Assembly (NCBI GenBank): GCA_020091685.1
Contig: CM034601.1
Coordinates: 9,116,419-9,180,418 of the forward strand
Length of the DNA stretch: 64,000 nt
Origin: Lutjanus erythropterus
Taxonomy: Eukaryota; Chordata; Actinopteri; Lutjaniformes; Lutjanidae
Direction of reading: 5' to 3'
Both the position numbers and the translations under genes were made by a program. Numbering within the stretch: position 1 is the first letter of the stretch; each line of letters begins with the position of its first letter. The notes below the pieces were generated by a model, which saw only the letters and a program-made list of their open reading frames with translations, searched no databases and was not told where the DNA came from. This document shows positions 12,901-15,900 of this stretch, piece after piece.

Positions 12901-15900
12901 TGAAAATCATATAATTTTTCTGAATTATATGATTTCACTACAGTAAAAAGTTGATAACATCATTAAAGTACTTAAATGAAAAAAACAACTATGACTGCAA
13001 AATCCACCTTAACACAAGACTTCTAAGATATTAACTGCCAGGAATATGTTAATGGTATAAGTATGGACTTCTGTTAGACTGTGTTGATGCTATTGAGGGA
13101 TCACCTTCTCTTCATAGGTGGATAATGATGTTTTCTTATCACATCAGGCCTTCACTGACTTGCAGTGCTCCTTTGAGGCTATGAATAACACAAACAGTTT
13201 GTTTATGTCAAAATTTTATTAATGAAAAGACACAAAATATTTGCATGTTTTGTCCCCTTTCACTTTTCTAAACAGGGCACTGATGCAAAAGGAGAGAAAA
13301 GTGTTGCCACGACTGCACAAGAGAATGGAAACCAAGGTAGGCGGATGATCCGAGAGGTTCCACACAGGTAACCTGATGAGCTGAGCTCACCTTTGGTTCT
13401 GTTTGGTTTTATCTCCTCAGAAAACTCATCTGATGCAGCTCAAACTGCTGAATCTGCTCCACAATCACACGGGCCTCTCACCGCCACCATGAAACCAGCC
13501 ACAGAGTCTGCAGCCGTAACCAACACTGTTCAGTCGGCGGTGGAAACTCCCGACACACCTGGTCAGTTGACTCTTTTTTTTCATCCTTAAATATTTTCTG
13601 ACTTTGGGAAACATCTGATCAATATTTTTCACCATTTTCTGACATTTTACGGACCAAACAACTAATCGATTAATCGAGAAAAGATTAATTGATATTGAAA
13701 TTTAAGAATCTCAGCTGCTCCTTGATTCTGCTGTTTCTCAGGTGGGGAATCTTCACAGAGATAGATGCTCAAACGCAAGACTTTTTGAGTGTTTTTATTC
13801 CATGTTGACGTCATTCTTTATTCAGATTCTCTCTTTTCCAGATGCTGGTGAACCCCAGCCTCATCTCCCCGTCACTGCCATGACAACCAAACCCGCTCCA
13901 GAGGGTCTGACTGCCACCAAACCTGCACAGTCTCCAGCACTGGTGCCTAAAGCAGCTGCAGAAGCTCCAGCAGTGGAAGCAGGAGAATATCCTTTTATGA
14001 TAGGTCAGTTAGAGGGTCATATTTCACCTGCAAATTACCAAGCTAAGTTCATTTTCTTGAAGGTTCTGGTTTGTGCGTGCAGGTACGTCTGGGGCGAAGG
14101 AGTTGAGGTCCCAGCAGGTGTCTCAGGAGCAGTCCGGCTCTGCATCTCAGACTTTGGCCCATCTTCCTCTCACAGCTGTGACAAAAAACACCTCTGAGAC
14201 TTCTGCTGCACCCAAATCTGAACAGACTCCGGCTTCTGCACCGAATCCTCCAATGCCAGAGTCCCCAACAGTAAGGAGGGGAGAATATCCATTTAGACGC
14301 GGTGAGTACAATATTCATTTGGTTTGAGATACTAGTTTGTCTTGAAATATAAGTGTGAATGTTTATTTCATGTATGTACAGTGATTTTTTTAGCAAAGGT
14401 GTTTCTGTCATGTGTTTCTGTCCTCTTTAGATGCCACTCAACCCAAGCCTCACTTGCCTCTCACTGCCATGACCACACCCAACACAGAGTCTTCATCGTC
14501 TGCTGCAACAACAACTCAGTCTCCAGCTCTTTCAGGATTACAGGAATCTGCAGTGAAACCTGGGGAATATCCCTTTAAGCGGGGTGAGTTCATCCAGGGA
14601 TGGTATCTGTCTCTAAAATTAAAGACCTGTGTTTTCTACTGTATTCTCCATTCCTCTTCACTTGGACTGTGTTTCACTAACAGATTGGTTTAATCTGAGA
14701 GTAGTTCTTATCAGAGTTTAGCAAAACCCAGTTTTAACATTACATTGTTTGCTAGCTAGCTAAAAAGTTAACAAAACATGACAATGATTGCTAGTTAGCT
14801 AAAAAGTTTACAATACATAATACTGTTTGCTTGTTGGCTAATAAGTTACTTTTTTTTACATTGTTTGCTAGCTAGCTAAAAAGTAAAAACAAAAAAGTTA
14901 CTTAGTTTGCTAAATAGCTAAAACATTAACTCAGCATTACAATGTTTACTAACTAGGTAAACAGTTAATAAAATGTTACATTGTTTGCTGTGCTGACAAA
15001 AAAGTCCAAAAAAAGTTATATTGTTTGCTAGCTAGATAAACATTAAACTAAATGTATTTTTTTTAATTATTATTATTTTATTTTTTTTAGTAGGTGGCTA
15101 AAAAGTTAACCAAACATTACACTGTTTGCTACCTACCTAGCTAGCTAAAATGTAAACAAAATCCATCAGTTAGCCTACTCTTGATGGGCTGACAGTAAAA
15201 CTGCCATTTCTCCTCTTTGAGAAAAACTTTTTAATGAAGAAACATGGCCAAATAATAGAAGATTAAAGAACGATCAACAGGACAGTAAAGACAAAAGAGA
15301 CAGCCTGGCAGCAACTGACAGACTGTTTTAATAAATCAACTGGAGTGTCAAATACATTATCTTATTTTCCTTAGTTTCTCTTTCCCAACATTGTCCACTT
15401 TTGTCTCATCTCATCACTTCAGTACCAGTTCTCAAGACACCCAGTCCCAGTCTGAAGAGAAGTGTGAGCTTTCCTCAGCCTGCAGGTAAAATATTATAAA
15501 CACTCATTGACCTGTTTATAGCAGTTCACACAGTTTGCACAAAGCATTTTTCTCCTCTCTTTTTATCCAGCTCATTTCATGTCTCTTTGTGTTTCTGCAG
15601 AAAAATTACTTCCCTCCAAATCAATCATAAAATCTGGTTTCTCACCTAGTTTGGACAAGTGAGTCACGATCATGAATCATGTTTTGTAACATGAAGTTGA
15701 TTATTGGTAGATTAATGTGGTGTTTTATCCATTAAAACAGGCTCTTATTAGCTTCTGTCCACATGTATTTCTATCTGTTCCTCCTCAGGAAAGTGACAAA
15801 GTCAGGGGGAGTCGAGTTTAAGCAGGATGTGATGAAATCACAAACGCTTCCACGCTCCAATGGAGCTCAGGCCAAACGGGCTATGTTTGAGAGGATGAAC

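Follow-up and report, generated by a model that had tools for sequence, protein, structure and literature searches.

A probable tandem duplication of a symmetric exon in the linker of smtnl2 in the fish Lutjanus erythropterus

In a stretch of 64,000 nucleotides from Lutjanus erythropterus (assembly GCA_020091685.1, contig CM034601.1, positions 9,116,419 to 9,180,418 of the forward strand; hereafter the window), the linker of the smtnl2 gene contains four consecutive exons that resemble one another, which raises the question of whether they are tandem copies of a single exon and, if so, what four copies would add to the protein. SMTNL2 has been described as a JNK substrate (PMC8395060, in excerpt) and as a coronin-1B inhibitor that stabilises actin (PMC10515290, in excerpt), and as accumulating in the human muscle pellet fraction after resistance exercise (PMC13415819, in excerpt); the excerpted text of PMC10643981 regards its linker as lacking structure and as little conserved.

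The gene at 6436-17962 is smtnl2. It lies on the plus strand and was modelled from splice sites and reading frame only, giving 12 coding exons and 628 amino acids, in which an N-terminal coiled-coil exon comes first, a long linker of low complexity next and a calponin homology (CH) domain at the C-terminus. The exons on either side of the four repeated ones are as follows.

6436..6945, plus strand: exon 1, N-terminal coiled coil, residues 1-170 (gene model; helices 2-52 and 54-85)
13276..13336, plus strand: exon 2, phase 0-1, not itself a copy of the repeat (gene model; control scores)
15423..15485, plus strand: exon 7, phase 1-1, 21 codons, holding TPSP and RSVSFP beside the array (gene model; control scores)
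15601..15658, plus strand: exon 8 (gene model)
15789..15914, plus strand: exon 9 (gene model)
15998..16112, plus strand: exon 10, 115 nt, where the CH domain begins (gene model; Pfam)
17131..17282, plus strand: exon 11, 152 nt, CH domain (gene model; Pfam; mouse exon sizes)
17836..17962, plus strand: exon 12, 127 nt including the stop codon, end of the CH domain (gene model; mouse exon sizes)

The CH domain was matched by Pfam in one stretch (E 1.1e-22), and its nearest solved structures were those of smoothelin (2d87) and SMTNL1 (2jv9). Mouse smoothelins have an invariant penultimate exon of 152 nt and a coding terminal exon of 127 nt (PMC10643981, in excerpt), and fish exons 11 (152 nt) and 12 (127 nt with the stop codon) have these mouse sizes. 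The exon before the penultimate one measures 118 nt in mouse SMTNL2 and SMTN and 115 nt in mouse SMTNL1 (PMC10643981, in excerpt); fish exon 10, at 115 nt, has the mouse SMTNL1 size and departs from mouse SMTNL2 by one codon, a small mismatch that counts against SMTNL2. This antepenultimate exon is near-identical in size across the family and, in the excerpted text of the same paper, is not used to separate its members. A KTKK tail is given there as a mark of SMTNL1 and SMTN E20+, and the C-terminus in the fish gene reads LKKFE, without a KTKK tail. At the other end of the protein, the coiled coil showed 42% identity over residues 1-84 to human SMTNL2, for which the outgroup throughout was a provisional sequence of 461 residues and not a database record, and AlphaFold placed helices at residues 2-52 and 54-85 (pLDDT block means 62-90). 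The terminal exon type and the alignment to the provisional human sequence favour SMTNL2.

Several other elements were observed in the window. Intron 1 of smtnl2 contains a 56-base tandem repeat of the CTAGAACCCACCAAGGGGGTTCTACCAAGAACCC type at 9155-9713, with 7.2 copies (72% matches) followed by 2.7 copies (71%). Among nine chosen ORFs that were scanned, those on the plus strand downstream included a CRK-like SH3-domain ORF at 25884-26624 and two ORFs with 14-3-3 pieces at 46719-54079; the order smtnl2, crk, ywhae, with these gene names presumed, is reminiscent of human 17p13. An ORF on the minus strand at 19400-19543 gave a sub-threshold match to reverse transcriptase (E 0.0078) and is probably a decayed retroelement. 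Lastly, a 164-base tandem array of 10.5 copies (99% matches), with GTAT runs and a GGCAAAAACAACACTT element, occupies 62278-64000 as far as the end of the window and creates long artificial ORFs on both strands.

The four similar exons, labelled A to D, are exons 3 to 6. The original prediction had placed them at 13421..14583, with lengths of 47-73 codons and phase 1-1 throughout, and these coordinates proved exact (47, 54, 73 and 51 codons). All four have GT donors and AG acceptors, and their parts are listed below.

13421..13561, plus strand: repeat exon A (exon 3), 47 codons, phase 1-1, the most diverged, without GEYPF and with the QSP proline lost (gene model; alignments)
13468..13491, plus strand: degenerate 5' motif HGPLTATM, exon A
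13842..14003, plus strand: repeat exon B (exon 4), 54 codons, phase 1-1 (gene model; alignments)
13862..13885, plus strand: HLPVTAMT, exon B
13928..13936, plus strand: QSP, exon B, its serine 19 residues past the TA threonine
13982..13996, plus strand: GEYPF, exon B
14083..14301, plus strand: repeat exon C (exon 5), 73 codons, phase 1-1, its N-terminal end longer by about 19 codons (gene model; alignments)
14160..14183, plus strand: HLPLTAVT, exon C
14223..14231, plus strand: QTP, exon C, its threonine 18 residues past the TA threonine
14280..14294, plus strand: GEYPF, exon C
14431..14583, plus strand: repeat exon D (exon 6), 51 codons, phase 1-1 (gene model; alignments)
14451..14474, plus strand: HLPLTAMT, exon D
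14517..14525, plus strand: QSP, exon D, its serine 19 residues past the TA threonine
14562..14576, plus strand: GEYPF, exon D

Three elements recur along the array, namely H.P[LV]TA[MV]T, Q[ST]P and, at the exon end, GEYPF; exon A is the exception in all three, having a degenerate 5' motif, a Q[ST]P element without its proline and no GEYPF. The expectation that GEYPF and two further residues close exons 4 to 6 was borne out in B, C and D, where the two residues are MI, RR and KR, respectively. Of the ordered motif pair that had been proposed for all four exons, the 5' HLP.TA motif stood (degenerate in A); the TES that was to follow it is not common to the array, as it occurs only in A and D, with PEG in B and SETS in C. 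The intron directly after the repeat exons contains a 39-base minisatellite rich in GCTAGCTAGCTAAAAAGTTAAC (14736-15040; 7.7 copies, 67% matches).

The relationship among the exons was assessed at the protein level by local alignment scores, each compared with 2000 composition-preserving shuffles per pair. Exons B, C and D gave z-scores of 13.1 (BD), 10.0 (BC) and 9.8 (CD), none of which was reached by any of the 2000 shuffles; exon A gave 6.0 with B and 5.2 with C (0/2000 in each case) and 4.2 with D (5/2000). Twelve control comparisons with other pieces of the linker gave z-scores from -1.5 to 2.1, the largest being reached by 23/500 shuffles. Alignment of the DNA ranked AD and BD above 300/300 shuffles and BC above 299/300, and was unremarkable for CD, AB and AC, whose scores were reached by 15/300, 60/300 and 125/300 shuffles. 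The predicted alignment of exons 3 to 6 was thus found in all six pairs as protein, and as DNA in AD, BD and BC but not in AB, AC and CD; since AB and AC do not stand out in DNA, the case for exon 3 is mainly a protein one. A profile built from the four exons, searched against the six-frame ORFs of the window, recovered only A to D, with E-values of 4e-20 to 5e-31 that are inflated because the same four exons had built the profile; no fifth copy was found among the 2905 ORFs of at least 15 residues, the next match having an E-value of 3.4. Exon 7 was considered as a fifth copy and rejected, with z-scores of -1.0 to -0.1 against A to D. With all six pairs significant as protein and phase 1-1 in every exon, the proposal that exons 3 to 6 are tandem duplicates of a symmetric exon held, and we consider with high confidence that they arose through exon duplication. 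Exon 3 is, judged by its protein alignments, a diverged fourth copy, and the duplication of one exon to four is the likeliest history.

The age of the copies was examined in their introns and in their silent sites. No similarity was found among the five introns in or beside the array (10 pairs, largest z 1.7). Silent and replacement differences were counted by the method of Nei and Gojobori, and across the six A-D pairs pS was 0.62-0.76, near saturation, and pN was 0.33-0.51; pN was lower than pS in 6/6 pairs, with Fisher p values of 0.0002 to 0.034 on rounded counts. The unalignable introns and the near-saturated silent sites indicate that the copies are old, and they disfavour both a recent duplication and gene conversion. 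Furthermore, because replacement differences are lower while silent sites are near saturation, the A-D protein has been constrained. Bootstrapping favoured no particular order in which B, C and D were duplicated (one third each; 5000 bootstraps, 49 columns). From this one fish sequence the duplications are old and probably widely shared, and a recent duplication event is unlikely; the timing in the original prediction, growth within this fish lineage, is not supported.

The original prediction had also held that duplication supplied most of about 165 extra residues in the linker. Between common landmarks the linker has 388 residues in the fish gene against 218 in the provisional human SMTNL2, and the excess of 170 residues is close to three added units, so that the gain is of the right size. 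The A-D profile scored the provisional human protein above 1000 shuffles, but with only 5.3 bits once a composition correction of 10.3 bits had been applied, the best shuffle having 4.8. Single copies matched the provisional human sequence poorly, the score being reached by 1788 of 2000 shuffles for A, 736 for B, 64 for C and 25 for D. No 5-mer resembling GEYPF beyond chance was found in the provisional human linker (926/1000 shuffles were as good).

Composition and structure prediction give some guide to the nature of the array. P, S, T, A, E, Q and G account for 72% of the residues of A to D, and their FoldIndex of 0.01 lies at the boundary, being neither clearly folded nor unfolded. AlphaFold, run on the single sequence, gave a mean pLDDT of 45.2, with about 37 and no helices or strands in A to D, although the CH domain too was mostly below 50, and the model says little about the linker apart from this absence of helices and strands. 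Disorder of the linker in the array, though probable, is thus weakly supported. For the array Pfam gave nothing above threshold, its one match, to DUF865 (E 0.01), being of low complexity; the four-exon profile searched against solved structures gave two chance matches only (E 5.7 and 8.6), and the array pattern searched in viral contigs fitted 26 stretches, of which 0 were confirmed. A literature search for the string GEYPF yielded 0 papers, and no paper on repeats or exon duplication in smoothelin genes was recognised by title and abstract opening among the matches listed, which is weak evidence of absence.

Altogether, we favour, with some reserve, an expanded and probably disordered linker that carries several copies of short motifs and is probably spliced in full. 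In this reading a symmetric linker exon of phase 1-1 was tandemly duplicated long ago to give exons 3 to 6, and as every copy is 1-1, further ones could join the gene and leave its reading frame intact. The copies may have been kept because each brought a set of motifs consisting of H.P[LV]TA[MV]T, a proline-directed Q[ST]P and, at the end of three units, GEYPF. The longer linker may then offer several weak docking or phosphorylation sites to one cytoskeletal or signalling partner, and the added sites would sit just upstream of the TPSP and RSVSFP cluster of exon 7. That selection acted on the repeated motifs, and not on length alone, comes close to an even call but falls a little short of one.

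The alternative that survives best is that length only was selected, the exons being kept as an entropic spacer between the coiled coil and the CH domain and the motifs being remnants of common descent. The low-complexity composition rich in P, S, T and A is consistent with a spacer, as are the free divergence of the stretches between the motifs and the variation in unit length from 47 to 73 codons. The motif blocks H.P[LV]TA[MV]T and GEYPF had a pN of 0.07 in BC, BD and CD against 0.42-0.47 in the spacers, a contrast that carries a bias, since conservation was the ground on which the blocks were chosen; pS in the same pairs was 0.51-0.72 in the blocks and 0.61-0.71 in the spacers. GEYPF is identical in its three copies, and BC, BD and CD each show two nonsynonymous differences in the 8-residue 5' block. 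In pairs that include exon A (AB, AC and AD), the 5' block enjoys no special conservation (pN 0.28-0.34), and a degenerate block in an exon that also lacks GEYPF is what a spacer would allow. Clustering of the conserved B/C/D columns, assessed by 20000 permutations, also fits a spacer, as it was not significant: the longest run was reached in 2084/20000 and the best 8-column window in 5575/20000. The exact motif borders are therefore a description and not a statistical result. However, remnants should have decayed by the time silent sites approached saturation, yet GEYPF and the 8-residue block were kept, and the excess of pS over pN in six of six pairs also argues against a role in length only. 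We regard this alternative as unlikely, and it ranks second to the reading with several short motifs.

A bolder form of the motif reading would have kinases act on the array. The JNK sites of human SMTNL2 are Ser217, Thr236, Thr239 and Ser241 (PMC8395060, in excerpt). The provisional human sequence has SP or TP exactly at positions 217, 236, 239 and 241, and this match makes it credible in that stretch. It has one HQPVTAIT unit, with Ser217-Pro 19 residues past the threonine. QSP follows the TA threonine at this same distance in B and D, and QTP does so at 18 residues in C. Of 195 anchors in the provisional human linker, 18 have an [ST]P at the Ser217 spacing.

Twelve known motif patterns were counted in residues 191-436. 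Nine [ST]P sites were present against a shuffle mean of 8.66, indicating no enrichment, and Q[ST]P was mildly enriched (3, reached by 22/2000 shuffles). P..P (6 matches; 787/2000) and the loose MAP-kinase docking pattern (2; 628/2000) were at chance level; RVxF (RSVSF in exon 7; 55/2000) and R..[ST].P (2 matches; 46/2000) were borderline given twelve patterns; and PxIxIT (calcineurin), JIP1-type docking, PPxY and R.[ST] each gave 0 matches in these residues. Exon 7 itself holds, at 15437-15475, a TPSP pair like Thr239/Ser241 of the provisional human sequence, followed by RSVSFP, which fits 14-3-3-like and RVxF patterns, and its LKRS.SF recurs in exon 10 as LKRSQSF. The JIP1-class docking pattern had 0 matches in the whole smtnl2 protein. 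Since PMC4670726 (in excerpt) confines the docking motif of human SMTNL2 to placental mammals and the JIP1 pattern is absent here, the fish protein need not be a target of JNK, and on the motif results as a whole several copies of short motifs are preferred to a JNK-specific account. That a MAP kinase phosphorylates Q[ST]P is possible but doubtful from the sequence. It is improbable that fish smtnl2 has multiplied a phospho-regulated docking module, with a Ser217 homologue per exon (QSP or QTP in 3/4) and GEYPF in 3/4; if it had, Smtnl2 would be a multivalent, kinase-tunable adaptor of the actin cytoskeleton whose strength is set by the units present or spliced in.

The splice sites bear on how many units reach the protein. 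The donors of A to D match 7/9 consensus positions, within the range of 6-8 for the other smtnl2 exons with a donor, which are assumed to be constitutive. Acceptor tracts have 12-13 pyrimidines of 15 in A, B and D and 9/15 in C, the lowest of the 11 smtnl2 acceptors (others 11-13). Within the array the introns measure 280, 79 and 129 bases. Good donors and short introns favour inclusion, and it is likely that all four exons are spliced in as the main form. One might suppose instead, as the original prediction allowed, that skipping of the symmetric exons or choice among them yields isoforms carrying one to four units: exons 3 to 7 are all phase 1-1, so that any subset keeps the frame, the acceptor tract of exon C is the weakest, and exons duplicated in tandem are known to give rise to substitution events (PMC9741552, in excerpt). 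Against this stand the donors of ordinary strength and the array introns of only 79-280 bases, and in its excerpted text PMC9741552 concerns mutually exclusive exons in regions that slightly tend away from predicted disorder. Such regulated isoforms seem quite improbable.

The weakest alternative, that A to D are unrelated low-complexity exons alike merely through a composition in which P, S, T, A, E, Q or G make up 72% of residues, was already disfavoured for B, C and D and is practically ruled out by the shuffles, which stayed below the real score in 2000/2000 cases for five pairs and 1995/2000 for AD, and by the other parts of the linker (12 comparisons) and exon 7 (4), which fail to score.

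The favoured reading, a linker with several copies of short motifs, can be set against known systems, among them the mammalian SMTNL2 linker, which belongs to the same protein family and occupies the same place between the coiled coil and the CH domain. In the provisional human sequence it likewise has an H.P[LV]TA.T unit followed by SP at a distance of 19 residues; however, it has one such unit where the fish has four, and it is without GEYPF. Mammalian SMTNL2 also differs in having its own JNK docking motif, the one described as placental (PMC4670726, in excerpt). The internal repeat is a guide to the linker residues that matter, as the copies single out three candidates, H.P[LV]TA[MV]T, Q[ST]P and GEYPF, and the main interest of the locus lies in these candidate motifs that the repeat exposes; if they bind something, fish would provide ready-made valency variants. 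Human tandem duplicated exons that give rise to substitution events (PMC9741552, in excerpt) resemble the array in being homologous exons in tandem in one gene; those exons are spliced as alternatives, whereas the smtnl2 exons look cumulative from their sequence.

The closest precedent appears, by analogy, to be piccolo b of teleosts, in which a zinc-finger exon was amplified 8 to 16 times in tandem in one of two ohnologues (PMC3484663, in excerpt). As in smtnl2, a single exon of a fish gene was multiplied in tandem, the copies differ in size, and conserved blocks persist while the intervening lengths drift by insertions and deletions. Piccolo b differs in having 8-16 copies with zinc-finger parts and an IZF motif, followed across several species, whereas smtnl2 has four short low-complexity copies with no Pfam domain, known here from one sequence. 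In the excerpted text of PMC3484663, zebrafish duplicated genes were surveyed by counts of Pfam domains and the piccolo b case was called very rare; an array like that of smtnl2, having no Pfam domain, would escape such a survey. Taken together, these comparisons place smtnl2 beside piccolo b as a further, if modest, case of a fish gene in which one exon was amplified.
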